NCBI GenBank assembly: GCA_029858965.1
Contig: JAOUDZ010000004.1
Location: forward strand, 50,625 to 114,624
Direction: 5' to 3'
Source of the DNA: Cyclobacteriaceae bacterium
GTDB lineage: Bacteria > Bacteroidota > Bacteroidia > Cytophagales > Cyclobacteriaceae
DNA: 64,000 nucleotides
Part shown: one piece after another, positions 7,153 through 20,530 of the stretch
Numbering within the stretch: the first letter of the stretch is position 1
How the letters are laid out: the number at the start of each line of letters is the position of its first letter
Made by a program: the position numbers and the translations under genes
The notes under the pieces: model-generated
What the model was told of the DNA's origin: nothing
The model's database searches: none
Seen by the model: only the letters and a program-made list of their open reading frames with translations

Positions 7153-10100
7153 ATGAAAATTATTCTTGATTTTTTGAAAAAATACTTAAGTCCACTTTTT
7201 AATACCCGGGCTGCTGGTCTTTACATCCTTTGTTTTGCAATATCCATTGCGGTAGCCACTTTTATTGAGAATGATTTTGGTACCAGCTCTTCCCAGAAAG
7301 TTGTCTACAAGACGTGGTGGTTTACCGCCTTGCTCGCTTTATTCGCCGTCACTATTATCGTCAACATTTTCCGCTTCAGGATGATCCAGCAAAAGAAGTG
7401 GGCTTTACTAATGTTTCACTTAGCGATGATTATCATTCTGCTAGGGTCTGCAGTTACCCGGTATTTTGGATATGAGGGCGTAATGCATATCCGGGAGAAC
7501 GATGCTTCGAATAGCTTCTTATCTTCAGAAACCTATTTACAGTTCAACGTTTTTAAGGATGAGCAGTCCTATGCGTTTGACGAGCCGGTGCTCTTTGCCA
7601 CGCTGGGGAATAATCATTGGAAGGAGTCCTATTTGGTTGGAAAGGACCTGATTGAAGTTGAAGTAATCGATTTTATTCCAAACCCGATTCAAGTGCTGGA
7701 TGCTGACGCCTCCGGTCTCCCGACAATCAAAATTGTTATGGGTGGTATGGATGGCAGGGAGGAATACTTTGTGCGGCAGGGAGAAACCTACAGAATCCGG
7801 GATGCGATTTTTAATTTTCGTGACGAACAAATCCCGGAGGCAATAAACATAGCGTATCGAAATGACTCTCTCCTCATTAAGACCAGTAAGGTTTTGATGC
7901 AAACCGTAATGGCTACCCAGAAAAGGGATACGCTCTATCCAACTTCAGGCTATCATCCATTGATGTTAAGGTCATTATATACTGATGGCGTTAGTAGCTT
8001 CGTTTTTGGTGATTTCAATGCAAAAGGAGCAGTGCGCATTGACTCTGAAGGTCCAAAAGTAAAAAGCGAAAGTATGACTGCCCTCAAAGCAAAAGTTTCC
8101 GTAAACGGAGTTGCCGACACACTCTATATATATGGGGCAAAAGGACTACATGGAAGTCCTTCAACGACTGAACTGGATGGCCTTGGTTTATCAATTGCCT
8201 ATGGTGCAAAACATATTGCGTTACCGTTCTCACTCAAGCTATACGACTTCATTATGGAAAGGTATCCGGGTACCAACAGTGCAGTATCGTATGCCAGTGA
8301 AGTACAATTGATTGACACCAGGAAAAACCTGGAAGAGGACCACCGCATCTATATGAACCACATTCTGAACTATGAAGGCTATCGGTTTTTTCAGTCTTCT
8401 TTTGACAATGATGAACTGGGAACTTACCTCAGTGTTAACCATGATTTTTGGGGCTCATGGATTTCCTACCTTGGCTATACGCTACTGACGCTGGGTATGA
8501 TCATGACCTTGTTGAGTCGGAAAAGTAGATTCTACCAGGTTTCTCAAAACATTAAGAAACTTAGATTAAAAAGTGCCGCTTCGCTGGTGTTCGTTGCGCT
8601 CCTGCTAAGTATACCTACGATCACTTCAGCACAAAAGATAATCGATCAGGGGAATTTTCAAAACATTGTCGATGCTGACCATGCGCGCGCGTTTAGCAGG
8701 CTAATTGTTCAGGATCACAATGGCCGGATGAAACCGATCCATACGCTTACCCGGGAAGTGATGAGAAAGTTGGCTCGGAAAGAAAGCCTCAACGGGCTAA
8801 ATGCCGATCAGATCATTTTGGGAATGTTTGTTAACAGCCGAGACTGGATTGGAGTGCCCATGATCAGCCTGGGCCAGCATGAAGCAATCCACAAACTTCT
8901 CGGGGTCTCTGAAAAGATGGCTTCCTATAAGGATTTTTTTGCGCAGAATGGTGAATACCTGCTGAATGATGAGGTCAGCGTTGCGTATAGCCTCCAGCCT
9001 GTTGATCGGGGTGTCTATGAAAAAGAGCTGATGAAAATTGATGAAAGGGTGAACATAGCAAACATGGTGTATTCGGGCACCCTGTTCAAGATGGTACCTG
9101 TGCCAGACGACCCCAACAATACCTGGGCCGCTGTTCAGGTATCAGGCCATAACCATGGTGAACCAAACACGCCATTGGCGACAAAATTTTTTGAATCGTA
9201 TAAGTCCGCGCTGGCAGAGGCGATGGTTACAAATGATTATAGGCTGGCAGGTAAAATGTTAAGCGAATTAGCATCGTATCAAAAGTCAAAAGGTGGGGCA
9301 TTGATGCCTTCGCCTTCGGAAATTAAGGCAGAAATACTCCTCAATAAATTGAATATCTTCAATCGATTGGCCGTTTTGTATTCATTGTTGGGCGTTGCGT
9401 TTTTGTTCTTTCTATTCTTCTCCGTTTTCCGACCCGACACTAAGCTAAGCACTGTACACAAAGTGTTACTTGGGTTGGTGATCGCCAGCTTTGTTTTCCA
9501 CACGATTGGTCTGGGTATGCGATGGTATGTGTCGGGCAGAGCGCCCTGGAGCAATGGTTATGAGTCAATGATTTACATAGCCTGGACTACGCTCCTGGCC
9601 GGTGTAATATTTGCCAGAAAATCTTTCGGTGGCTTGGCTGCGACGATGACCTTGTCCGCTACCGTATTGCTCGTAGCCAGTTTGAGTTACCTCGACCCGG
9701 AAATCACACCTTTAGTTCCTGTGCTCAGATCGTATTGGTTGACCATCCATGTGTCCATGGAAGCCGGGAGTTATGGATTCCTAATGTTAGGGGCCATCAT
9801 AGGACTAATCAATTTAATCCTGATGGTTTTCCTTACCACCAGGAACAAGGACAAAATTCATCATCAGATCAGGGAGATGTCATACCTGAGTGAAATGACT
9901 TTGATAGGTGGCTTGTTTATGATCAGTATAGGAACTTACCTGGGTGGCGTTTGGGCTAATGAATCATGGGGCAGGTATTGGGGCTGGGATGCGAAAGAGA
10001 CGTGGGCTTTGGTGACTATCCTGGTCTATGCATTTATCCTGCACATGCGGATTATCCCTAAAATGCAAGGGCTGTTTGCCTATAATTTTGCTACAATTTT

Positions 10101-10281
10101 TGGGCTGGGATCGGTAGTCATGACCTACTATGGTGTCAACTATTACTTATCCGGATTGCATTCGTATGCTGCCGGAGATCCTGTTCCCATACCACAATGG
10201 GTATACATTGTGATCACCTCGATCTTGATTATTAGTATACTGGCTTTTTGGAAGAAACGAATGCACAACATCACCACGTAA
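7153..10281 (+). CDS. ccsBA: Fused cytochrome c synthase CcsBA (ResB-ResC type, system II)
   Basis: A single 1042-residue polypeptide joins the CcsB/ResB part (helices near 20-40, 50-70 and 80-95, a large periplasmic domain, then a helix near 435-455) with the CcsA/ResC part (residues about 730-1040). It carries out system II maturation: haem export and thioether attachment to CxxCH apocytochromes outside the inner membrane. The haem-handling WWD-type motif WGRYWGWDAKETWAL lies near 937-951. The middle periplasmic region (residues about 500-720, with HNGRMKPIHTL) is typical of Bacteroidota CcsBA. The gene heads the multihaem cytochrome block, which would need large amounts of c-type haem ligation. 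The next gene starts 167 bases downstream. Confidence 0.93.
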   Translation: MKIILDFLKKYLSPLFNTRAAGLYILCFAISIAVATFIENDFGTSSSQKVVYKTWWFTALLALFAVTIIVNIFRFRMIQQKKWALLMFHLAMIIILLGSAVTRYFGYEGVMHIRENDASNSFLSSETYLQFNVFKDEQSYAFDEPVLFATLGNNHWKESYLVGKDLIEVEVIDFIPNPIQVLDADASGLPTIKIVMGGMDGREEYFVRQGETYRIRDAIFNFRDEQIPEAINIAYRNDSLLIKTSKVLMQTVMATQKRDTLYPTSGYHPLMLRSLYTDGVSSFVFGDFNAKGAVRIDSEGPKVKSESMTALKAKVSVNGVADTLYIYGAKGLHGSPSTTELDGLGLSIAYGAKHIALPFSLKLYDFIMERYPGTNSAVSYASEVQLIDTRKNLEEDHRIYMNHILNYEGYRFFQSSFDNDELGTYLSVNHDFWGSWISYLGYTLLTLGMIMTLLSRKSRFYQVSQNIKKLRLKSAASLVFVALLLSIPTITSAQKIIDQGNFQNIVDADHARAFSRLIVQDHNGRMKPIHTLTREVMRKLARKESLNGLNADQIILGMFVNSRDWIGVPMISLGQHEAIHKLLGVSEKMASYKDFFAQNGEYLLNDEVSVAYSLQPVDRGVYEKELMKIDERVNIANMVYSGTLFKMVPVPDDPNNTWAAVQVSGHNHGEPNTPLATKFFESYKSALAEAMVTNDYRLAGKMLSELASYQKSKGGALMPSPSEIKAEILLNKLNIFNRLAVLYSLLGVAFLFFLFFSVFRPDTKLSTVHKVLLGLVIASFVFHTIGLGMRWYVSGRAPWSNGYESMIYIAWTTLLAGVIFARKSFGGLAATMTLSATVLLVASLSYLDPEITPLVPVLRSYWLTIHVSMEAGSYGFLMLGAIIGLINLILMVFLTTRNKDKIHHQIREMSYLSEMTLIGGLFMISIGTYLGGVWANESWGRYWGWDAKETWALVTILVYAFILHMRIIPKMQGLFAYNFATIFGLGSVVMTYYGVNYYLSGLHSYAAGDPVPIPQWVYIVITSILIISILAFWKKRMHNITT

Positions 10282-10448
10282 AGTCCATTGTGTTGCAGGT
10301 CTGTTTGTAAGGAATAAATCTGTAAAACTGATGAAGTTTATCAATGACCGGAACTCCAGATTGGATTTACCTTGATACAAGGTGCTGAGTGTGATGGGAT
10401 TAAGAAATGAAGAAGATTATTAAATCATCAAATAAATGAGCTTTATCA

Positions 10449-11297
10449 ATGACCAAACCTGTTCATAGAATTTATGTCGGGACGATGGTGCTGGCCGTTA
10501 TAGCCGTAACGGCGTACCTTATATACACAGGGTATTCCTATTATGATAGTCCGCTGGAGGAAAGGTTTTATCATCCCCGTCACGACTGGTTTAAACCAAG
10601 TGGTGCCTTTGGGCATGGCCTGGGTATTTTGGGTACGCTGATGATATTGTTCGGGGTCTCAATTTATATTGCCAGGAAGCGATACAATTTTCTAACAAAA
10701 CAATTAAGACTGAAATACCTGCTGGAGTTTCATATTTTCCTTTGCACGCTTGGTCCTATCCTAATTCTTTTTCACACTGCTTTTAAGTTTGGCGGAATTG
10801 TTTCCATTGCCTTTTGGAGTATGGTTGCCGTTGTATTAAGCGGTGTTATAGGCAGATTTGTATATATACAGATACCCCGTACCATTGAGGGGAGGGAACT
10901 TACACTCAACGAGGTGAAGCATATGCAGGAGGGTTTGTCGGATACGTTAAAGAGAAGTATTGGAATTGATGATCAAATAGCCCGCACGATCGTCAGCCTG
11001 ACTTCAGGTCATCACCCATCCGGAAATGGTTCAGGTCATCTTGGAAATAGAAAGGCAATTGGAATCATCAGAAAAATTCTCAGACAAAGAAAAATTGGCA
11101 GGAAACAAAGAAGATATATTATCAAATTGGCGAAAGAAGAAATTTCCTTATCCAATAAAATAAGGCGATTACAGACGATGCAAAAACTATTCAAATACTG
11201 GCACGTTGCACATTTACCCTTTGCGTTGATTATGCTGATCATACTGATCATCCACGTTGCAGTTACGTTATCGTTTGGATATAAATGGATATTCTGA
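10449..11297 (+). CDS. Membrane cytochrome b-like protein with two H-x13-H haem pairs
   Basis: A 282-residue membrane protein with five hydrophobic helices (residues about 9-28, 50-75, 88-110, 115-137 and 252-275). Two helices each carry histidines 14 positions apart: H95/H109 and H255/H269. This is the ligand spacing that holds two stacked b haems in cytochrome b and ferric-reductase-type proteins. A basic, charged cytoplasmic-type loop (about 140-245) separates the two halves. I do not recognise a named family. Its stop codon overlaps the start of the flavoprotein gene (TGATG), so the two products are probably translationally coupled partners carrying electrons across the inner membrane. 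Haem binding is inferred from spacing only. Confidence 0.7.
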   Translation: MTKPVHRIYVGTMVLAVIAVTAYLIYTGYSYYDSPLEERFYHPRHDWFKPSGAFGHGLGILGTLMILFGVSIYIARKRYNFLTKQLRLKYLLEFHIFLCTLGPILILFHTAFKFGGIVSIAFWSMVAVVLSGVIGRFVYIQIPRTIEGRELTLNEVKHMQEGLSDTLKRSIGIDDQIARTIVSLTSGHHPSGNGSGHLGNRKAIGIIRKILRQRKIGRKQRRYIIKLAKEEISLSNKIRRLQTMQKLFKYWHVAHLPFALIMLIILIIHVAVTLSFGYKWIF

Positions 11298-12631
11298 TGG
11301 AAGAAGTATTTATTGAACAAGTAGTGATGTATGGCGCCGCAATTTTATTGTGTGCAGTCGTAGTCTATTTTTATTTGAGACAGAATAAGGTTACTTCATC
11401 TGTGACGCGGCACAAAGTGGCTATTGCCAAAGCGGAGGGATTATTTGAGCCCGTTTCGCTGCATCCTTATATAGACCTTAATACTTGTATCGGTAGCGCT
11501 GCATGCATCTCGGATTGTCCGGAAAAAGATATTTTGGGGCTGATCGATGGCAAGGCGACTGTCATCAATGCTTCAAACTGTGTTGGTCATGGCGCATGCT
11601 TTCATGCTTGTCCTGTTGAGGCCATATCGCTCCGGATCGGCACGGAAGCGAGGGGTGTGGATTTGCCGCATGTCAATGAAAACTTTGAGACTAACGTATC
11701 CGGTATCTATATCGCAGGAGAACTGGGAGGAATGGGATTGATTAAAAACAGCGTTGAACAAGGCCAGCAAGCGGTGGAATACATGGTGAAGCGCAAAAAG
11801 AAAGCAGGGCAAGATGCGCTTGACATTGTTATTATTGGCGCAGGGCCTGCAGGTATTTCCGCGTCACTAGCCGCAAAAAAACACGGATTAACGAGTATAA
11901 CGCTTGAACAAGATTCTTTAGGGGGAACGGTTTATACCTTTCCGAGAGCAAAAGTTGTTATGACCTCACCGATGAACCTGCCCTTATTCGGGAAGGTGAA
12001 GTTGACGGACACTTCGAAAGATGAGTTGCTGGGAATTTGGAAAAAAGTGATTTCAGAAAACAGTCTCAGGATCAAGGAGAATACCAAAGTAAAAGATATC
12101 CTGCCTATGCAGAATGGGGCGTTTAAAGTAGTAACAGCGGGAGGTGATCAATACATAAGCAATAATGTTCTGCTTGCCATCGGGCGCAGGGGGAGCCCGA
12201 GGAAATTAGGGATCAAGGGTGAGGACCTGCCAAAAGTTGCCTATCGCCTGATAGAATCCGAGAGGATTTCGAACAAGAAAATAATAGTGGTAGGCGGGGG
12301 AGATTCGGCTGTAGAATCCGCCTTGCTGTTGAAAGACAGAAATGAAGTTATTCTCTCCTATAGAAAGGATAAATTCTCTCGGCTGAAGCCAAAAAACAAA
12401 CATAATGTGGAGCGTGCTGTTGCAGATCACTCGCTCAAAATGATGTTTAACTCTGACCTGGTCTCCGTAGATTCAAAATCGGTATCGATGAATGTTGATG
12501 GAGAAAATAAGGTACTGGAGAATGACCTGGTCTACATTTTTGCCGGAGGAGAAATGCCCACAGAATTCCTTCAAAAGGCGGGCATAGAGATTTCAAAAAG
12601 ATTCGGACATATTGTGAAAAAGCACGGCTAG
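11297..12631 (+). CDS. Membrane-anchored ferredoxin/FAD/NAD(P) oxidoreductase
   Basis: A 444-residue flavoprotein; an in-frame ATG at 11285 is an alternative start. An N-terminal helix (about 10-26) anchors it. Two ferredoxin-like motifs follow at residues 64-75 and 95-106. In both, the second cysteine of the usual CxxCxxCxxxCP is replaced: by Ser in CIGSAACISDCP and by His in CVGHGACFHACP. A thioredoxin-reductase-like fold comes next, with a dinucleotide site GAGPAGIS near 178 and a second one, VVGGGDSAVES, near 330. No CxxC redox disulfide is visible, so this is unlikely to be a true thioredoxin reductase. It may pass electrons between NAD(P)H, Fe-S and the membrane cytochrome b-like partner. 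The direction of flow is unknown. Confidence 0.8.
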   Translation: MEEVFIEQVVMYGAAILLCAVVVYFYLRQNKVTSSVTRHKVAIAKAEGLFEPVSLHPYIDLNTCIGSAACISDCPEKDILGLIDGKATVINASNCVGHGACFHACPVEAISLRIGTEARGVDLPHVNENFETNVSGIYIAGELGGMGLIKNSVEQGQQAVEYMVKRKKKAGQDALDIVIIGAGPAGISASLAAKKHGLTSITLEQDSLGGTVYTFPRAKVVMTSPMNLPLFGKVKLTDTSKDELLGIWKKVISENSLRIKENTKVKDILPMQNGAFKVVTAGGDQYISNNVLLAIGRRGSPRKLGIKGEDLPKVAYRLIESERISNKKIIVVGGGDSAVESALLLKDRNEVILSYRKDKFSRLKPKNKHNVERAVADHSLKMMFNSDLVSVDSKSVSMNVDGENKVLENDLVYIFAGGEMPTEFLQKAGIEISKRFGHIVKKHG

Positions 12632-12637
12632 ACGGAT

Positions 12638-14230
12638 TTGAAATTCTTTTGGATACATATCATCACGACGTTATTGTCTGTTTCAGTCAGCTTCGGACAA
12701 ATATCACCAGGTGATCTATCCACTGCACATGCCAAATTTGAAGGGATGAGCAATTGTACGCAATGCCATGATCTGGGAAAGAAGGTTTCCAGCATCAAGT
12801 GCCTGGAGTGTCACAAAGAAATCCAGTCACTGGTTAGTCAAAAAAAAGGATACCATTCCAGTGCTAGCGTAACCAACAAAGATTGTTTCGCATGTCACAG
12901 CGAACACCATGGAAGAAACTTTGATATGGTTCGATTTAATGAAAAGCAATTCAACCACGACCTTACCGGGTATAAACTTGAGGGTAAGCATGCTGTCATT
13001 GAATGCCGTGATTGCCACCGACCGGATTATATACAAAACGCTGAGTTAAGAAAAAACAAAAACACTTTTCTGGGTTTGAAACAAGAATGCCTGTCTTGTC
13101 ATGAAGACTTTCACCAAAAGACCTTATCAACGAACTGCGTGGCTTGCCATGACATGAAGGCGTTCAGGCCAGCGTCAAAGTTCGATCACAACCTCGCTAA
13201 ATTCAAACTCACCGGTAAGCACACGGAAGTTGATTGTAAAGAATGCCATAAAGTAAGCACCAAAAATGGAAGGGAATTTCAGGCATTTACAAATATCCCC
13301 CATAACGATTGCGTGGCCTGTCACAAGGACCCTCACAATAATCGCTTCGAGGGCAAATGCACACAATGCCATACCGACAGATCATTTTCTGAGTTCATCG
13401 GCAGGAATCGCTTTGACCACAATACAACTGATTTCACCCTAAACGGAAAACACAAGACAGTAGATTGTTTTAAGTGCCACAAAAATACCACGGAAGCGGC
13501 CATGGTTTTCAGCTTTACGCCAAAGGTCTCTGAAACGCAATGCGCGTCTTGTCATAAGGATGTTCACAAGGGTAAGCTGGGAAACAATTGTGCCAAATGC
13601 CATGCGGAAACAAGTTTTATAGCACTAAAATCAGAGACAAAAGCCACTTTTGATCACGATGCCACTGACTATCCGTTGGAGGGTAAGCATGTGGTTGTGG
13701 ATTGCAAGAAATGCCACAAAGGTAGGTACACAGAGGCGATAAATTTCTCTGCCTGCAAAAACTGCCATGCAGATTATCATAAAGCCGAATTTGCAAGAAA
13801 TGGTACTTCCCCAGACTGTGTTGAATGTCATACGGTACAGGAGAAATTCAATTACAGTTTATATTCGCTCGACCAGCATCAGGCAACAAAATTCCCGTTG
13901 GCCGGAGCGCACTCGGCCACTCCGTGTTTCTCATGCCATGTCAGTGAAGATAGATGGTCGTTTAAGAATAAGAGTTCATCCTGTTCGCAGTGTCACAAGA
14001 ATGTTCATGGTGATCGTTTTGCAGTAAAGGGAATAACGGACTGCGAACGATGTCACGATTCTGATAGTTGGTTCCCCAGTAAATTCGACCATAATCTGAC
14101 TGCCTTTCCGTTGGATGGCCGTCATGCTGATGTTGAATGCCGCTTATGTCATAAGCCTGTTGAGAAGGAAGGAAAGATTTTTGTGCAGTACACTATAGCC
14201 AAACACCAATGTATAGATTGTCATCAATAA
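12638..14230 (+). CDS. Exported 20-haem cytochrome c (cytochrome c3-like)
   Basis: A 530-residue exported protein with 20 CxxCH haem-attachment sites spread along its length. A TTG start at 12638 is chosen because it directly precedes a good signal peptide (IITTLLSVSVSFGQ) and no ATG sits before it in frame. The flavoprotein stop is only six bases upstream. Repeats of the form FDHN-x-T-x-F-x-L-x-GKH-x-x-V-x-C-x-x-CH put extra histidines beside each haem, which fits bis-His ligation as in c3-type wires. Its last codons (CIDCHQ, stop) overlap the next cytochrome gene by 22 bases. The expected location is the periplasm or cell surface, carrying electrons in chains of haems. Confidence 0.9.
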   Translation: MKFFWIHIITTLLSVSVSFGQISPGDLSTAHAKFEGMSNCTQCHDLGKKVSSIKCLECHKEIQSLVSQKKGYHSSASVTNKDCFACHSEHHGRNFDMVRFNEKQFNHDLTGYKLEGKHAVIECRDCHRPDYIQNAELRKNKNTFLGLKQECLSCHEDFHQKTLSTNCVACHDMKAFRPASKFDHNLAKFKLTGKHTEVDCKECHKVSTKNGREFQAFTNIPHNDCVACHKDPHNNRFEGKCTQCHTDRSFSEFIGRNRFDHNTTDFTLNGKHKTVDCFKCHKNTTEAAMVFSFTPKVSETQCASCHKDVHKGKLGNNCAKCHAETSFIALKSETKATFDHDATDYPLEGKHVVVDCKKCHKGRYTEAINFSACKNCHADYHKAEFARNGTSPDCVECHTVQEKFNYSLYSLDQHQATKFPLAGAHSATPCFSCHVSEDRWSFKNKSSSCSQCHKNVHGDRFAVKGITDCERCHDSDSWFPSKFDHNLTAFPLDGRHADVECRLCHKPVEKEGKIFVQYTIAKHQCIDCHQ

Positions 14231-16323
14231 TATTGGCACTCGTTGGCTTTCTTTTCCAAACCTATGCACAGTCGCCGCATGGCGATGCACTTAAGCTGGA
14301 TTGTGCGGCTTGTCATGACGCGTCTGGATGGTTACCGGTGAGAGATACACTTCACTTCGATCATAATGTGTCGAACTTCCCGCTAACGGGAAGCCATCAG
14401 TTAGTTGATTGCAAATCATGTCATACGTCCCTGGTCTTTGGAAATGCTTCCACCCAGTGCGTTGATTGTCATACCGATATTCACAGCATGACCGTTGGTA
14501 ATGATTGCGCCCGATGCCATACGCAACAAAGTTGGATCGTTGACAATATTCCCGAGATCCATGAACAAAATGGATTTTCCCTGGTTGGGTCGCACGGCTC
14601 ACCAAGTTGCGTGGAATGCCATATTTCTGAGACGAGCTTAAAGTTTAATCCGATAGGAAATGATTGTATTAACTGTCACCGAGAAGATTATGCAGCAACC
14701 AATAATCCGGATCATCAGAAACTGGGTTTCTCTGCTGATTGTGTTGAATGCCACGATCCTGCTTCGTTAGGATGGACTGCAGGACTTGTTGAGCATGATT
14801 TCTTTCCGCTAACCATGGGGCACAATATTGCGGACTGCAAGCAATGCCATCTAACTGAGAATTATGCTGATGCTTCTCCGGAGTGTGTGAGTTGCCATTT
14901 GGACAATTACACAGCTACCACTAATCCCGATCACGCCCATGCGGGCTTCTCTAACAACTGTGCCGAATGCCATACTACCGGTGGATGGAGTCCGTCCTCA
15001 TTTGATCATAACATAGTATATCCATTGATTGGCGCGCATGAGGCCGTAGCCAATAACTGCGCCCTCTGCCATGTGGATGGTTATTCAAATACACCCAATA
15101 CGTGTGTAGGATGTCATTTGGATGATTATACAGCCACAACTGATCCGAACCACGCGGATGCCAAGTTCCCGCAAGATTGCGCACAGTGCCACGACGAGAA
15201 GGCCTGGGCTCCGTCCTCTTTTGATCATAACACCGTTCATCCGCTTCTGGGTGCGCATAGCGCCATTGCTAATAATTGCATGCTTTGCCATGCTAATGGT
15301 TACGCGAATACACCAAATACCTGCGTAGGATGTCATTTGGATGATTATACAGCCACCACTAATCCTGATCACGTGGATGCTAAGTTCCCACAAGATTGCG
15401 CGCAATGCCACGACGAAAAAGCCTGGACTCCGGCTGATTTTAACCACAATAGCATATACCCCTTGCTCGGTGCACACGCTGCAGTTGCAAACGACTGTGC
15501 GCGCTGCCACGCTCAGGGATACGCAAACACGCCAAATACCTGCGTGGGATGCCATTTGGACGATTATAACGCCTCCGCTAATCCAAATCATACGGACGCC
15601 AATTTCCCCAAGGATTGTGTGCAATGCCATGATGAGACCGCCTGGATTCCAGCCGACTTTAACCATAACAGCATATACCCGTTGACGGGTGCGCATGCTC
15701 CCATCGCCAATGATTGCGCACGCTGTCATGCTCAGGGATACACAAACACACCCAATACCTGTGTAGGGTGCCATTTGGATGATTATAGAGCCACGACGAA
15801 TCCAAATCATGCGGACGCCAATTTCCCCAAGGATTGTGTGCAATGCCATGATGAGACCGCCTGGATTCCAGCCGACTTTAACCATAACAGCATATACCCG
15901 TTGACGGGTGCGCATGCTCCCATCGCCAATGATTGCGCACGCTGCCATGCGCAGGGGTACACAAATACGCCAAATACCTGTGTAGGATGCCATTTGGATG
16001 ATTATAACGGTACGTCAAAACCCAATCACAGCAGTGCCCTATTTCCTAAGGATTGTACGCAATGTCACGATAATACGAGATGGGTACCGGCCGATTGGGA
16101 TCACGACGGTATGTATTTCCCAATATACAGCGGGAAACACATAGAGGCATGGAATTCATGCACGGACTGTCATACGAGCGCCAGCAATTATGCGGTGTTC
16201 AGTTGCATTGATTGCCATAAACACAGCAATCAGTCTGAAGTGACCAACCAGCATCAGGGTGTAAGGGATTTTGTCTACGCAAGCGCGGACTGTTTGTCAT
16301 GCCACCCAAGAGGAACAAAATAA
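14209..16323 (+). CDS. Exported 28-haem cytochrome c with five trihaem modules
   Basis: A 704-residue exported multihaem cytochrome with 28 CxxCH motifs. The signal peptide is LSSIILALVGFLFQTYAQ. The ATG at 14209 lies inside the end of the upstream cytochrome gene, and the same arrangement is kept at the paralogue at 18859, which supports this start. Nine haems lie in the N-terminal part, 15 in five tandem 73-residue modules (three haems each), and four at the C-terminus. Modules carry conserved FDHN/FNHN, GAH and PNH histidines, likely distal haem ligands. The protein is almost the same as the 485-residue paralogue apart from three extra modules. It is probably a long periplasmic or outer-membrane-associated electron wire. 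The redox partner and acceptor are unknown. Confidence 0.92.
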   Translation: MYRLSSIILALVGFLFQTYAQSPHGDALKLDCAACHDASGWLPVRDTLHFDHNVSNFPLTGSHQLVDCKSCHTSLVFGNASTQCVDCHTDIHSMTVGNDCARCHTQQSWIVDNIPEIHEQNGFSLVGSHGSPSCVECHISETSLKFNPIGNDCINCHREDYAATNNPDHQKLGFSADCVECHDPASLGWTAGLVEHDFFPLTMGHNIADCKQCHLTENYADASPECVSCHLDNYTATTNPDHAHAGFSNNCAECHTTGGWSPSSFDHNIVYPLIGAHEAVANNCALCHVDGYSNTPNTCVGCHLDDYTATTDPNHADAKFPQDCAQCHDEKAWAPSSFDHNTVHPLLGAHSAIANNCMLCHANGYANTPNTCVGCHLDDYTATTNPDHVDAKFPQDCAQCHDEKAWTPADFNHNSIYPLLGAHAAVANDCARCHAQGYANTPNTCVGCHLDDYNASANPNHTDANFPKDCVQCHDETAWIPADFNHNSIYPLTGAHAPIANDCARCHAQGYTNTPNTCVGCHLDDYRATTNPNHADANFPKDCVQCHDETAWIPADFNHNSIYPLTGAHAPIANDCARCHAQGYTNTPNTCVGCHLDDYNGTSKPNHSSALFPKDCTQCHDNTRWVPADWDHDGMYFPIYSGKHIEAWNSCTDCHTSASNYAVFSCIDCHKHSNQSEVTNQHQGVRDFVYASADCLSCHPRGTK
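14959..16053 (+). repeat. Five tandem 219-bp units encoding trihaem modules
   Basis: Units begin at 14959, 15178, 15397, 15616 and 15835, each exactly 219 bases (73 codons), and the sixth CxxCH-D block starts at 16054. Each unit encodes three haem sites of the order CxQCHD, CxxCHA and CVGCHLDDY. The units starting at 15616 and 15835 are nearly identical at the DNA level over their first 170 bases or so, pointing to recent duplication or gene conversion. Confidence 0.95.
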
Positions 16324-16325
16324 CG

Positions 16326-17918
16326 ATGATTTTGAAGAGCGTATCCATATTGTCATTATTGGTGCTAAGCCCTCTGTTTTGCTTCGCTCAAAACAATACC
16401 GAAGTGCTGCAGGGCAAAGTGACCTTCATTACTTCCAATAATGCGTATGTGAAATTTTCCGACACAAGAAATATCTCCATTGGTGATACGCTGCGTCTGC
16501 TCCGCGGTACAACCTTGAGCCCAAGCCTTATTGTAAAAAATAAGTCTTCTACATCTTGTGTGGCGATCATCCTGAACGGGGCCGATGTGAAAGTGGACGA
16601 CAAAATCATTTTTAGGTCAAAAGCCCCCATTGATCAAAAGCGCATTGACGATCCGAACAACGGTACCAAAATCAATTCTGACAAAGTAGGCGCGTCAACT
16701 AGGCGAAGCAATAAAATCAACGGAAGCGTTTCTGCAGCCAGTTACAGCACGATATCCTCCACCAGAGGTAATGTGACGAGGGCCATGTATCGTCTTTCAT
16801 TTAATGCACCCCAGATCAATAATTCAAAATTCTCGGTGGAAACTTATATGAACTACAGGCAAACTTTCGTACCAAAAGATACTATGTCACTTCAGCCAAA
16901 AGATGTTTTCAACATTTACAATTTGGCCCTAAGGTATGACGTTACACCCACGATGTCATTAATAGTGGGGAGGAAAATCAATCCCAAGGTGTCATCCGTT
17001 GGGGCTATTGATGGATTGCAGGCGGAAAAGTTTTTTGGTAATTTTTATGCAGGCCTGCTCGTCGGTTTCAGGCCGGATGTTATGGATTATAAGTTCAATT
17101 CAGATCTACTGCAATATGGCGGCTACATAGGCTTGAAAAGCGACAACAAAGAAATGTATTCCCAGACTACACTGGGTTTCCTGGAGCAGAAGAACAACGG
17201 CAATATAGACAGGCGATATACTTACTTCCAGCATTCCAGTACAATAGGTCGCGCGCTAAACATTTTTTCTTCGTTCGAGCTTGACTTATACAATAGGGTA
17301 AATGCCGACTCTGTTGGCAAGCCCAGGTTGACCAATTTTTACGTTTCACTTGCGTATCGCATAGGTCGCAAGGTCGACTTTAGTGTTTCATACAATACGC
17401 GTAAACAAATCATATACTATGAAACCCTAAAAACCGAAATTGAACGGCTCCTTGACGATGATAATGATATCGCCCGGCAGGGCATGAGATTCAGAGTGAA
17501 TGCCAGGCCCTTTAAAAATATCAGCATAGGATTGAGCTACAGCAAGAGATTCCAAAGCAACGACCACAATAATTCTGATAATTACAACGGATATATAAAT
17601 GTGTCAAAAATTCCATGGATTGGAGGAAGTCTATCCCTGAATGCCAATCGGAACACATCTTCTTATATGGAAAGCAATATTTTATCTTTTAGACATTCAA
17701 GACCTCTGATCAAAATGAAGTTGGACGCCGATCTGTATTACCGAATTGTTGACTACACCTACTTGAGCAGCGAGCTAATTACCAAACAAAACTATTACGG
17801 TATCTCCCTATCGTACCGGATAACGAAGAAAATGTCCGTCACCGTTCTGGGGGAATTGGCTGCTACAGCTACAGAAGAAAATTATAGGGTAAATACCAGG
17901 CTAATTCAGCGCTTTTAA
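16326..17918 (+). CDS. Predicted outer-membrane beta-barrel protein of the cytochrome locus
   Basis: A 530-residue exported protein. The ATG at 16326 gives a signal peptide (MILKSVSILSLLVL...CFAQ). Residues about 25-110 form a small beta domain (GKVTFITSNNAYVKF, then VKVDDKIIF) like an SH3- or OB-type barrel. From about 150 on, alternating polar and hydrophobic strands with aromatic ends (GNVTRAMYRLSFNA, YRIGRKVDFSVSYNTR) run to a C-terminus of NTRLIQRF, with the terminal Phe typical of outer-membrane barrels. I do not recognise a named family. Lying directly after the 28-haem gene, it could be the barrel of a porin-cytochrome conduit, analogous in idea to MtrB or PioB. That role is inferred from position only. 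A decayed second copy starts at 20319. Confidence 0.65.
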   Translation: MILKSVSILSLLVLSPLFCFAQNNTEVLQGKVTFITSNNAYVKFSDTRNISIGDTLRLLRGTTLSPSLIVKNKSSTSCVAIILNGADVKVDDKIIFRSKAPIDQKRIDDPNNGTKINSDKVGASTRRSNKINGSVSAASYSTISSTRGNVTRAMYRLSFNAPQINNSKFSVETYMNYRQTFVPKDTMSLQPKDVFNIYNLALRYDVTPTMSLIVGRKINPKVSSVGAIDGLQAEKFFGNFYAGLLVGFRPDVMDYKFNSDLLQYGGYIGLKSDNKEMYSQTTLGFLEQKNNGNIDRRYTYFQHSSTIGRALNIFSSFELDLYNRVNADSVGKPRLTNFYVSLAYRIGRKVDFSVSYNTRKQIIYYETLKTEIERLLDDDNDIARQGMRFRVNARPFKNISIGLSYSKRFQSNDHNNSDNYNGYINVSKIPWIGGSLSLNANRNTSSYMESNILSFRHSRPLIKMKLDADLYYRIVDYTYLSSELITKQNYYGISLSYRITKKMSVTVLGELAATATEENYRVNTRLIQRF

Positions 17919-17930
17919 ATAGAAAACACC

Positions 17931-18707
17931 ATGAAGATGAATTATATATTAAAATTGATCTGTATGGGCACCGTCATACTGATCGTGATGGCGCGTTGTA
18001 CGAAGAATCCAAAAGTCATTGATGCTTCTTCAAACAACATCGGCACAGCGGAAGGTTCAGGTATTTTCTCTGAAGATCAACGGCCGGCAATTCCCGATTT
18101 GTCAAAACAATCGCTCGGATCTGACCTGCATACCGTTACCGTAGAAGAGGTACTACCAACCTCGCGTTATGTTTACCTTCGTGTAAAAGAGGGAAAGGAA
18201 GCGTTTTGGATTGCTACGAATAAGCAAGAAGTGTCGGTTGGGGAAATATATTTCTATCGTGGTGGTTTGATGAAAACCAACTTCGAAAGTAAAGAACACA
18301 AACGTGTATTCGATAGATTGTATTTGGTGTCCGCGATTGTGAAGGCAGATCATGGTAATCAAAGCACACCGATTGAATCGAAATCCTCCGGCACTAGGCC
18401 TGCGAAGGAGGTAGACGTAAAAGGCTCCGTTAAAATTGCAGATTTGGTGGCTAATCCGGCTAAGTATGCAGGAAAAACCATACAAATCAGCGGTCAATGT
18501 GTGAAGATCAATCCCAACATTATGGGCCGCAACTGGGTACACTTGCAGGACGGAAGCAAGGATGATTATGATCTGGTCATCACTTGTGCTGTCCAAATAC
18601 CCGTCGGGCATACGGTTACTTTGACTGGCAAAGTAGTACTCAATAAGGATTTTGGAGCTGGCTATCAGTATGATATTTTACTGGAAGAAGGGGCGATTGT
18701 GGAGTAG
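17931..18707 (+). CDS. Lipoprotein with C-terminal OB-fold (NrfJ-like) domain
   Basis: A 258-residue predicted lipoprotein; an ATG at 17937 is an equally possible start. The hydrophobic leader ends VIVMARC, with Cys as the likely lipidation site. Residues about 55-135 form a first beta domain with VEEVLPTSRYVYLRV. After a linker, residues about 163-258 (VKIADLVANPAKYAGKTI, then GRNWVHLQDGSKDDYDL) match the OB-fold domain found in NrfJ-like proteins, which often accompany multihaem cytochromes. It follows the barrel gene after 12 bases and is probably in the same operon. A fragment of its 3' end reappears near 20510-20530 in the collapsed duplicate. Its function is unknown; assembly or stabilisation of the redox complex is a guess. 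Confidence 0.68.
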   Translation: MKMNYILKLICMGTVILIVMARCTKNPKVIDASSNNIGTAEGSGIFSEDQRPAIPDLSKQSLGSDLHTVTVEEVLPTSRYVYLRVKEGKEAFWIATNKQEVSVGEIYFYRGGLMKTNFESKEHKRVFDRLYLVSAIVKADHGNQSTPIESKSSGTRPAKEVDVKGSVKIADLVANPAKYAGKTIQISGQCVKINPNIMGRNWVHLQDGSKDDYDLVITCAVQIPVGHTVTLTGKVVLNKDFGAGYQYDILLEEGAIVE

Positions 18708-18879
18708 ACAGATGGTCATTTAGGTATAAGCTTTCATTCAGTATGCAGTGTCATAAAAATGTTAACGTTGATCGTTTGCCTGTTGTATGCCGCCTTAGCC
18801 ATAGGCCTTTTGAGCTGGGGGGAAAGATTTCTATTCAGTACACTATTACCAAACATCAATGTATAGACTGTCATCAATA
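18708..18879 (+). pseudogene. Decayed duplicate of the 3' end of the 20-haem cytochrome gene
   Basis: These roughly 170 bases align with 13950-14230, the last 280 bases of the 20-haem gene, with an internal deletion of about 105 bases and several substitutions. Recognisable matches include AGATGGTC at the start, CAGTGTCA (a CxxCH remnant), and the final segment TGTATAGACTGTCATCAATAA, which still reads CIDCHQ-stop. The frame is broken upstream. The retained end contains the start region of the 19-haem gene, which may explain why it has persisted. Confidence 0.85.
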
Positions 18880-20316
18880 ATATTGGCACTCGTTGGCCTT
18901 CTTTGCCAAACCTATGCACAGTCGCCGCATGGCGATGCCCTTAAGCTGGATTGTGCGGCTTGTCATGACGCATCTGGATGGTTACCGGTGAGAGATACAC
19001 TTCACTTCGATCATAATGAGTCGAACTTCCCGCTAACGGGAAGCCATCAGCAGGCTGATTGTAAACAATGTCATACTTCGCTGGTCTTTGGAAGTGCTCC
19101 TTCACAATGCGTTGATTGTCATACCGATATTCATAGCATGTCCGTCGGTAATGATTGCGCCCGATGCCATACGCCACAAAGTTGGATCGTAGACAATATT
19201 CCGGAGCTGCATGAACAAAATGGATTTCCACTGGTAGGATCGCACAACACGCCAAGTTGTGCGCAATGCCATATCTCTGAGACCAGCTTAAAGTTTAATC
19301 CGATTGGAAATGATTGTATTAACTGTCACCGAGAAGATTATGCGGCGACGAATAACCCGGATCATCAGAAACTGGGTTTCTCTAGTGATTGTGTTGAGTG
19401 CCATGATCCTGCTTCTATAGGATGGACTGCGGAACTTCTTGAGCATGATTTTTTTCCGCTAACCATGGGGCACAATATTGCGGACTGTAAGCAATGCCAT
19501 TTGACAGAAAATTATGCCGATGCCTCTCCGGAGTGTGCGAGTTGCCATTTGGACAATTACTCAGCCACCACTAATCCCAATCACACAAACGCAGGCTTCT
19601 CTAACAACTGTGCTGAATGTCATACTACAGGTGGATGGACTCCGTCCTCTTTCGATCACAACACCGTATATCCATTGATAGGCGCGCACGATGCCGTAGC
19701 AAATAACTGCGTTCTCTGCCATGCAGATGGTTATTCAAATACACCCAATACCTGCGTAGGATGTCATTTGGATGATTATACAGCCACGACGAATCCGAAT
19801 CATGCGGACGCCAATTTCCCCAAGGATTGCGCGCAATGCCACGATGAGAAAGCCTGGATTCCAGCCGACTTCAACCATAATAGCATTTACCCGCTGACGG
19901 GTGCCCATGCCGCCATCGCCAATGATTGCGCACGCTGCCATGCTAACGGTTACGCCAATACACCCAATACCTGCGTAGGATGTCATTTGGATGATTATAA
20001 CAGTACTTCTCAACCCAATCACGCGAATGCCCAATTTCCTAAGGATTGTGCGCAATGTCACGATAATACGAGATGGGTACCGGCCAATTGGGATCACGAT
20101 GGTATGTATTTCCCCATATATAGTGGTAAACACAAAGAGGCGTGGAATTCATGCACGGACTGTCACACCAGTGCCAGCAATTATGCGGTGTTCAGTTGCA
20201 TTGATTGCCATCAACACAGCAATCAGGTTGAAGTAACGAACCAGCATCAGAATGTCAAGAATTTTGTCTACGCGAGCGCGGACTGTTTCTCATGCCACCC
20301 AAGAGGAACAAATTAA
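18859..20316 (+). CDS. Exported 19-haem cytochrome c, short paralogue with two trihaem modules
   Basis: A 485-residue exported cytochrome with 19 CxxCH sites, highly similar along its length to the 704-residue protein at 14209. The signal peptide is LSSIILALVGLLCQTYAQ. It has the same nine-haem N-terminal part and four-haem C-terminal part but only two of the 73-residue modules, so the length difference is exactly 219 residues. The ATG at 18859 again sits inside a CIDCHQ-stop sequence, here part of a pseudogene. Its frame is intact and its haem motifs are all kept, which suggests selection for function even though its duplicated neighbours decayed. It may be an alternative shorter wire or a dosage copy. 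Confidence 0.9.
   Translation: MYRLSSIILALVGLLCQTYAQSPHGDALKLDCAACHDASGWLPVRDTLHFDHNESNFPLTGSHQQADCKQCHTSLVFGSAPSQCVDCHTDIHSMSVGNDCARCHTPQSWIVDNIPELHEQNGFPLVGSHNTPSCAQCHISETSLKFNPIGNDCINCHREDYAATNNPDHQKLGFSSDCVECHDPASIGWTAELLEHDFFPLTMGHNIADCKQCHLTENYADASPECASCHLDNYSATTNPNHTNAGFSNNCAECHTTGGWTPSSFDHNTVYPLIGAHDAVANNCVLCHADGYSNTPNTCVGCHLDDYTATTNPNHADANFPKDCAQCHDEKAWIPADFNHNSIYPLTGAHAAIANDCARCHANGYANTPNTCVGCHLDDYNSTSQPNHANAQFPKDCAQCHDNTRWVPANWDHDGMYFPIYSGKHKEAWNSCTDCHTSASNYAVFSCIDCHQHSNQVEVTNQHQNVKNFVYASADCFSCHPRGTN
19609..20046 (+). repeat. Two tandem 219-bp trihaem units
   Basis: Units begin at 19609 and 19828, and the following CxQCHDNTRW block starts at 20047, so the period is 219 bases as in the longer paralogue. 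The first corresponds to the first module of the 704-residue protein (AECHTTGGW), and the second to its later PADFNHNSIYPL-type modules. Confidence 0.93.
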
Positions 20317-20318
20317 CG

Positions 20319-20530
20319 ATGATTTTGAAAAGCGTAACTATATTGTCATTGTTGTTTTTAAACGCCCCTTTTTGCTTTGGTCAAAACAATACTGAATTGC
20401 TGCTGGGCAGGTGATCTTTTTTACCTTCAGCCCAAGCTTTATTGTAAAAAATAAGCCTTTCGCTTTCGTACCAGATAACGAATAAAATATTTTGTTGCAG
20501 TTCTTCTGGAAGAAGGGGAGATTGTGCAAT
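20319..20530 (+). pseudogene. Collapsed duplicate of the beta-barrel and OB-lipoprotein genes
   Basis: Directly after the 19-haem gene, ATGATTTTGAAAAGCGTA (20319) matches the start of the barrel gene at 16326. The match continues through the signal peptide (FCFGQNNTE) and then frameshifts. Segments matching 16513-16555 and then the barrel gene's 3' end near 17805-17850 (CGTACCAGATAACGAA) follow. The last bases (CTTCTGGAAGAAGGGGAGAT) blend into the 3' end of the lipoprotein gene at 18679-18704. About 2.4 kb has shrunk to about 210 bases by internal deletions, and no functional product is possible. Confidence 0.85.

Follow-up and report, generated by a model that had tools for sequence, protein, structure and literature searches.

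A 64,000-nucleotide (nt) stretch of a Cyclobacteriaceae bacterium genome (assembly GCA_029858965.1, contig JAOUDZ010000004.1, positions 50,625 to 114,624; hereafter the window) carries a compact cluster of genes for a diheme cytochrome b-like membrane protein, a membrane-anchored Fe-S flavoprotein, two long multihaem c-type cytochromes (the proposed inner and outer wires) and a predicted outer-membrane β-barrel. This gene set is real and widespread; its composition, its conservation, its haem and ligand motifs, and the fixed number of haem motifs in one wire against the stepwise number in the other are read directly from the sequences. We put at about 0.55 the probability that the cluster forms one trans-envelope conduit, through which electrons from intracellular NAD(P)H would reach the cell surface.

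Motif counts gave 67 CxxCH motifs in three open reading frames (ORFs; 20, 28 and 19 motifs), the number that a preliminary description of the window had reported; the only two other window ORFs of at least 90 amino acids (aa) that contain the motif have one copy each. The 20-, 28- and 19-haem proteins use 25.1 to 26.5 residues per motif. The neighbours named in that description were also recovered, namely the haem-c synthase CcsBA (by Pfam), a membrane protein with two H-x13-H pairs, an anchored NAD(P)/FAD/Fe-S protein, and a predicted barrel, and the cluster contains, beyond that list, a 258-aa lipoprotein-like protein. The description had also held that its proposal would fall if the barrel-like protein proved to be no barrel; a confident structure prediction yielded a 22-strand antiparallel transmembrane fold, as expected of an outer-membrane barrel. 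From 10449 to 18707, adjacent genes overlap or lie at most 13 bases apart in an operon-like arrangement (Table 1). Signal peptides of the window proteins were assessed by eye. The same neighbours recur in other genomes, which rules out a chance cluster.

The recurrence was traced with the cytochrome b. Scanning a collection of 84,980 species genomes gave 252 confirmed loci; the best 80 were kept, and these carry the names of Flavobacteriales, Saprospiraceae, Cyclobacteriaceae and others. Where 9 kb of downstream sequence was available among these 80, the order cytochrome b, flavoprotein, inner cytochrome, outer cytochrome, barrel was exact in 30 of 37 loci; of the remaining seven, six carry an additional outer cytochrome or stop short of the barrel, and one has extra copies of the first genes. 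Many deeper branches keep the set with the flavoprotein gene last. A broader survey of 121 loci (80 named, 40 further and one on a plasmid) was reduced to the 69 with at least 9 kb downstream by dropping 51 shorter ones and L130, in which no cytochrome b ORF was called. Same-strand partners in these 69 were the flavoprotein (66), the barrel (64), the inner cytochrome (64) and the outer cytochrome (67), both cytochromes being recognised by motif spacing; the apparently absent flavoproteins of L129 and L152, and the inner wire of L152, lie just past the surveyed stretch.

The association also holds when whole genomes are compared, with the reservation that related genomes are not independent in any of these counts. 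Of 395 genomes sampled from the phylum, 40 (roughly one in ten) encode the cytochrome b (E ≤ 1e-10). A barrel match (E ≤ 1e-5) occurs in 31 genomes, every one of them among these 40. Flavoprotein matches (E ≤ 1e-70) occur in 41 genomes, comprising 39 with the cytochrome b (in G415 at partial length) and two in which only the FAD part of a longer protein is matched. At these thresholds, the phylum genomes without the cytochrome b yielded no barrel and no flavoprotein with the Fe-S part. In G177 (locus L146) there is no flavoprotein, the cytochrome b gene has two internal stops and the partners were not found nearby, so that this cluster is apparently decaying. Close to the window organism the set is rare, the cytochrome b occurring in its own genome and one other among 39 searched; in another genus it was found in 6 of 12 genomes. 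Its wide occurrence elsewhere in the phylum rules out an oddity of a single genus. Cultured genera with the cytochrome b include Arenibacter, Yeosuana, Lutibacter, Aequorivita and Emticicia, several of which are aerobic heterotrophs that are not known to transfer electrons outside the cell. The 100-kb plasmid pEMTOL02 of Emticicia oligotrophica DSM 17448 holds the full set, CcsBA and the GW lipoprotein included (L088, 78197-90781), which suggests that it may move between lineages and makes the whole set accessible to experiment.

The two wires follow different rules of length. For haem counts we used 120 loci (the window and the Emticicia plasmid set aside), dropped 30 ORFs cut at contig ends, and assigned wires to the inner or outer class by their first motif spacings alone. 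Of 99 complete inner cytochromes, 98 have either 20 (40) or 23 motifs (58); the exception, in L008, has 12 motifs, lies upstream of the cytochrome b gene and is a different protein. Complete outer cytochromes range from 9 to 85 motifs, and 75 of 82 have a number of the form 3n+1 (10 to 85), as do 20 of the 25 distinct counts. The seven exceptions have 9 (L135-L137), 15 (L142), 38 (L164), 39 (L080) and 42 motifs (L047, one motif lost). Ten complete ORFs fell into neither class. Five of them are outer-like by spacing, with counts of 46, 25, 64, 13 and 19 that are all 3n+1; the others are 19-haem inner wires without the first motif in L143 and L150, a split inner-wire piece in L159, and two other cytochromes in L162. 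A binomial value of 4e-28 for the 3n+1 rule is too small, since related genomes are not independent. Close relatives show the same pattern. In 19 locus pairs with cytochromes b more than 80% identical, the inner count is constant, and the outer count differs in 17, by a multiple of three in 16 of these; an Arenibacter pair (cytochrome b 98% identical) has 25 and 16 outer motifs, and a Yeosuana pair (93%) has 22 and 31. Some outer counts may be low if short-read assembly has collapsed tandem 219-nt repeats, a loss of whole units that preserves 3n+1. Each outer wire is built largely from a 73-residue three-haem unit, such as those repeated in the window copy (Table 1), and whole units seem to be gained and lost. 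The largest outer cytochromes in our sample have 85 (L084, 2140 aa) and 70 haem motifs (L066); 85 was the largest haem number reported in 2017 (PMC5566968).

A fixed inner and a free outer length would be expected if only the inner wire has to span the periplasm. This bears on a reading in which all the cytochromes stay in the periplasm as an electron store (capacitor) or feed for an enzyme and the barrel is an unrelated channel. Such a reading would account for the lack of a recognised surface-export signal on the 28-haem protein. We nevertheless regard it as very improbable, because the haem number is free in the second wire and nearly fixed in the first, every barrel genome (31/31) has the cytochrome b, and the barrel lies near the cytochrome genes in 64 of 69 loci.

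The cytochrome b-like protein has the features expected at the inner-membrane end of a conduit. H95, H109, H255 and H269 are invariant in 32/32 aligned homologues, which matches the arrangement in which a pair of helices binds two b haems, and the predicted fold is a five-helix diheme cytochrome b. Its relatives (the best 120 of 7254 close and the best 120 of 1075 deep ones) all contain SGxxG and two Hx13H pairs (240/240), a combination found in none of 1200 shuffled sequences; in the phylum set, 38 of 39 have both pairs and 39 of 39 have SGxxG. A Trp precedes both pairs by four residues in 120/120 deep, 0/120 close and 32/39 phylum sequences, and the window protein, with Leu at the position of the Trp in transmembrane (TM) helix 3, does not carry WX3HX13H twice. 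Few of the 120 deep relatives carry a taxon name, and those that do are labelled Bacteroidetes, Balneolaceae, Rhodothermales, Gemmatimonadales or simply 'bacterium'; the closest named homologues among the matches listed (the best 120 of 7254 and the best 120 of 1324) include Cyclobacteriaceae and Chryseolinea. Sequence searches of solved structures gave no useful match for the cytochrome b, the barrel or the 20-haem protein.

Of the five hydrophobic segments, the last two are separated by a 109-residue loop with 23 Lys/Arg and 9 Asp/Glu, which is probably cytoplasmic because it is so basic. This loop matters for an alternative in which the conduit is driven outward by quinol, the cytochrome b oxidising menaquinol and the flavoprotein being a separate NAD(P)H:quinone or cluster-repair enzyme. 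Pfam PF01292, which we take to be the cytochrome b561/NiFe-hydrogenase cytochrome b family, matches one of the 120 distant homologues listed (best 120 of 1075) and favours this alternative somewhat. So does the proposal of a quinone-active diheme cytochrome b for PCC3, the published cluster type compared below (PMC5566968). However, the strict co-occurrence of the flavoprotein, together with the basic loop, suggests direct docking between the two proteins, and we consider a quinol-driven conduit quite unlikely.

The flavoprotein carries the Fe-S motifs CxxSxxCxxxCP and CxxHxxCxxxCP behind a single hydrophobic N-terminal helix, and a His replaces a Cys of the second motif in all 113 flavoproteins (113/113). 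Its FAD/NAD(P) domain is apparently circularly permuted, and this permuted module is predicted to face the cytoplasm. A YpdA enzyme was excluded, since TIGR04018 scores 160.5 bits against a cut-off of 339.9 and the domain order is permuted rather than canonical. In contrast to YpdA/Bdr and thioredoxin-reductase-like flavoenzymes, the window protein is apparently permuted, membrane-anchored and equipped with two ferredoxin-type cluster motifs. A literature search for a permuted, His-ligated flavoprotein returned nothing relevant among the matches listed. Two further observations concern this gene. In L178 (2426-4918, minus strand), an 830-aa protein combines the same permuted FAD/NAD(P) module with a membrane domain containing Fer4_5 and dicluster 4Fe-4S motifs, and looks like another membrane-bound NAD(P)H dehydrogenase. 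In six deep-branch loci (L149, L150, L151, L153, L154 and L161) an ORF of 196 to 212 aa lies between the cytochrome b and flavoprotein genes.

The closest published counterpart is PCC3. PCC3 was described in 2017 from Alpha-, Beta- and Gammaproteobacteria (He et al., PMC5566968) and is functionally untested (PMC12442390). Its layout, a porin, a periplasmic multihaem cytochrome, a second haem-rich cytochrome and an inner-membrane protein in one cluster, is also that of the window. Shared features are the inner-membrane protein (about 300 aa, five TM helices, SGXXG, two HX13H), as well as a haem-rich cytochrome of very variable count, a porin and a low residue-to-haem ratio, and the PCC3 periplasmic cytochrome has a median of 21 haems, close to the 20 of the window inner wire (PMC5566968). 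In Gallionellaceae, the PCC3 inner cytochrome has 21, 24 or 27 motifs, likewise in steps of three, and the outer cytochrome is not confined to 3n+1 (PMC10734462). The two differ in that PCC3 is described with four genes and no listed flavoprotein, which the window set adds, and in that WX3HX13H occurs twice in PCC3, whereas the window protein lacks one of the two Trp. Many TM regions, as many as 42, are described for the majority of PCC3 porins but not for every one; the window barrel model has 22 strands. Because of the missing signature Trp, and because the proteins of Sideroxydans strain ES-1 (Slit_0867-0870) were compared through their published descriptions, the window set is filed as PCC3-like rather than as a PCC3 member.

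The preliminary description had not known the layout to be described, which no longer applies to the core. Measured against the published passages compared, the set is partly new, in its near-obligate permuted Fe-S flavoprotein, in the three-haem step rule and in the spread of this variant in the phylum. Neither a flavoprotein-containing set nor a three-haem rule was named in the titles and abstract openings listed, in a search outside of which most subscription journals lay. Putative porin-cytochrome conduits without homology to known ones have been noted in 'a number of Bacteroidetes' metagenome-assembled genomes (PMC6344600). Another Bacteroidetes cluster, in which six multihaem proteins accompany a single barrel and which has hits in both Bacteroidetes and Ignavibacteriae (PMC8258643), may or may not be related to the window set. 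The accessible portions of PMC11475568, PMC7399161 and PMC8446621 do not describe the window gene set.

MtrCAB, MtoAB and PioAB share the logic of a multihaem wire with a barrel, but their cytochromes have 10 haems rather than 20 and 28. A conduit of the MtrAB/PioAB/MtoAB type was rejected because neither the barrel nor any other protein of the genome matches PF11854 (MtrB_PioB); the decahaem model TIGR03508 reaches at best 35.7 bits in the window (cut-off 192.2), and Pfam and NCBIfam searches found no CymA/NapC-type gene above cut-off in the cluster. In fold searches with the barrel, an MtrB-type barrel was absent among the matches listed, an absence that carries no evidential weight. OmbB-OmaB-OmcB, with an 8-haem periplasmic and a 12-haem outer cytochrome (PMC6344600), is set apart by its haem numbers from the 20, 28 and 19 found here.

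If the cluster works as we propose, NAD(P)H would reduce the FAD of the flavoprotein and then its Fe-S centres, which would pass electrons to the two b haems of the cytochrome b and on to the periplasm-spanning 20-haem inner wire; from there they would reach a cytochrome within the barrel and finally the outer 28-haem wire. The inner wire would be held at 20 or 23 haems to match the width of the periplasm. The preliminary description had suggested a Bacteroidota conduit linking NAD(P)H or quinone to the cell surface, and of this a conduit from NAD(P)H to the surface stands as the best reading. We infer the order of transfer, its outward direction, its independence of quinones, the identity of the cytochrome that occupies the barrel and the surface exposure of the outer wire, as we do the substrate, for which Fe(III) or Mn(IV) minerals, humic quinones and other cells are candidates. 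A stricter version is tentative, and we rate it below an even chance: an unbroken, quinone-independent NAD(P)H line from cytoplasm to surface, with a His-ligated Fe-S centre, a fixed rod and three-haem cassettes that set its reach within a genus. Such a line would be the counterpart of an NADPH oxidase at the scale of the whole envelope, and would be widespread among Bacteroidota and their relatives but largely overlooked.

Besides the near-obligate flavoprotein, the NAD(P)H feeding step is suggested by distant plasmid-borne modules of three genes, the first for a 2Fe-2S or FAD reductase, the second, directly after it, for the cytochrome b, and the third for a seven-haem cytochrome. The proteobacterial plasmid stretches examined carry modules smaller than the PCC3 clusters. 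Their cytochromes b are homologous to that of the window (21-31% identical among the matches listed other than Emticicia), whereas the reductase annotation differs and the neighbours listed include no barrel or long wires. Some plasmid hits fit less well: Methylocystis and Roseomonas have no annotated cytochrome gene beside the cytochrome b, the cytochromes b of Methylocystis and Sphingobium were not flagged by the profile, and the reductase next to the cytochrome b in BTAi1 is a short one beside a transposase.

A third alternative keeps the conduit and reverses it. The outer wire would be the entry point for electrons donated by Fe(II), Mn(II), minerals or partner cells. These would travel on to the cytochrome b and from there to the quinone pool, and the flavoprotein would reduce NAD(P)+ with part of them. 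The terminal oxidases of the window organism could accept such electrons. Reducing NAD(P)+ with iron-level electrons is energetically uphill, however, and the near-obligate flavoprotein (39/40 genomes) has no place in the four-gene descriptions of PCC3. The core layout is the one for which an inward model was drawn (PMC5566968), but both PCC3 clusters of strain ES-1 are down-regulated on Fe(II) (PMC8788666). We judge inward flow unlikely.

Several points weigh against the outward conduit that we prefer. Inward flow has been proposed for the related PCC3 clusters (PMC5566968), and we found no published test of electron transfer, direction or substrate for the gene set. The window organism probably respires oxygen, as its genome has three COX1-type oxidase genes, which makes the need for a conduit less obvious. 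The lipobox pattern occurs in only 2 of 88 complete outer wires, and NCBIfam secretion-tail models gave no match in the window outer-wire copies, so the route of the outer wire to the surface is left unexplained. The Fe-S region of the flavoprotein is poorly modelled, with a predicted local distance difference test (pLDDT) score below 50 over most of residues 54-124. Within the 69 surveyed loci, CcsBA lies near the cluster in just 24 and the lipoprotein in 29. In five genomes (G119, G357, G420, G412 and G294) the best barrel match is distant or on another contig, with a weaker match adjoining the cluster in two of them.

Should the conduit work as proposed, common polymer degraders would have a hidden ability to exchange electrons with minerals, humics or other cells. 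Owing to the three-haem step rule, nature offers wires graded from 10 to 85 haems on which conduction could be measured as a function of length, and the flavoprotein allows a direct test of NAD(P)H-driven versus quinol-driven extracellular reduction.

Table 1 Features of the multihaem cluster, by position in the window
Feature	Position	Strand	Evidence or remark
CcsBA, fused ResB/CcsB-type (System II) haem-c synthase, 1042 aa	7153..10281	+	Pfam
Diheme cytochrome b-like membrane protein, 282 aa, 5 predicted TM helices	10449..11297	+	H95/H109, H255/H269, SGxxG at 131-135
Membrane-anchored Fe-S flavoprotein, 448 aa	11285..12631	+	N-terminal TM helix, two ferredoxin-type motifs, FAD/NAD(P) module
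20-haem cytochrome c, proposed periplasm-spanning (inner) wire P	12638..14230	+	20 CxxCH
28-haem cytochrome c, proposed outer, length-variable wire W	14209..16323	+	28 CxxCH
Four consecutive similar 73-aa (219-nt) three-haem units within the 28-haem protein	15097..15972	+	Motif spacing 33-15-25
Predicted 22-strand outer-membrane β-barrel, small N-terminal β domain, C-terminal Phe	16299..17918	+	Structure prediction
Lipoprotein-like protein, 258 aa	17931..18707	+	Weak GW (SH3-like) match
Partial duplication: remnant of the 20-haem gene 3'-end, 19-haem cytochrome (18859-20316), remnant of the barrel gene 5'-end	18706..20459	+	blastn

CcsBA matches Pfam Cytochrom_C_asm (1.1e-37) and ResB (4.8e-22), both above cut-off, as expected of a System II synthase; the CcsB equivalog model scores 171.9 bits, below its own cut-off of 187.6. 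The window copy is the only full-length match in its assembly. On another contig, ORFs of 845 and 236 aa with a Cytochrom_C_asm domain are read as CcmF and CcmC, and since a second haem-lyase gene set is thus present elsewhere in the genome, CcsBA may serve this cluster specifically. The 258-aa protein matches Pfam GW at 0.0026, below cut-off, and its second half is possibly OB-like (by eye); 26 of 32 homologues have the lipobox pattern, which is atypical in the window copy (by eye). Better-scoring second homologues of the barrel, away from the cytochrome b cluster, are encoded at G294:C26:36527-37933 (two in-frame TAG codons) and G412:C11:479-1927. Among the plasmid relatives, the 2Fe-2S reductase, cytochrome b and seven-haem cytochrome module of Alteromonas macleodii (L095:7974-16588) lies just upstream of [NiFe]-hydrogenase genes, and in L091, L092, L093 and L096 the plasmid cytochrome b and reductase genes are near copper-resistance or multicopper-oxidase genes.

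The 19-haem gene lies in a segment (18706-20459) that repeats parts of 13948-16548: it copies the last part of the 20-haem gene and the first part of the barrel gene, and between them the 28-haem gene, shortened by three units. By blastn, the two regions are 86.6% identical over 1287 columns (against 14131-15413) and 86.0% over 776 (against 15664-16435), with short further matches to 13948-14019 and 16512-16548. The 28- and 19-haem genes differ in length by 657 nt, which is 3 x 219. We therefore exclude three independent cytochromes, since the 19-haem gene arose by duplication of the 28-haem gene and has decayed flanks. Its frame is open, the flanking pieces look decayed, and its first 400 codons show 72 synonymous and 55 non-synonymous differences, which together suggest that the duplicate has been kept.

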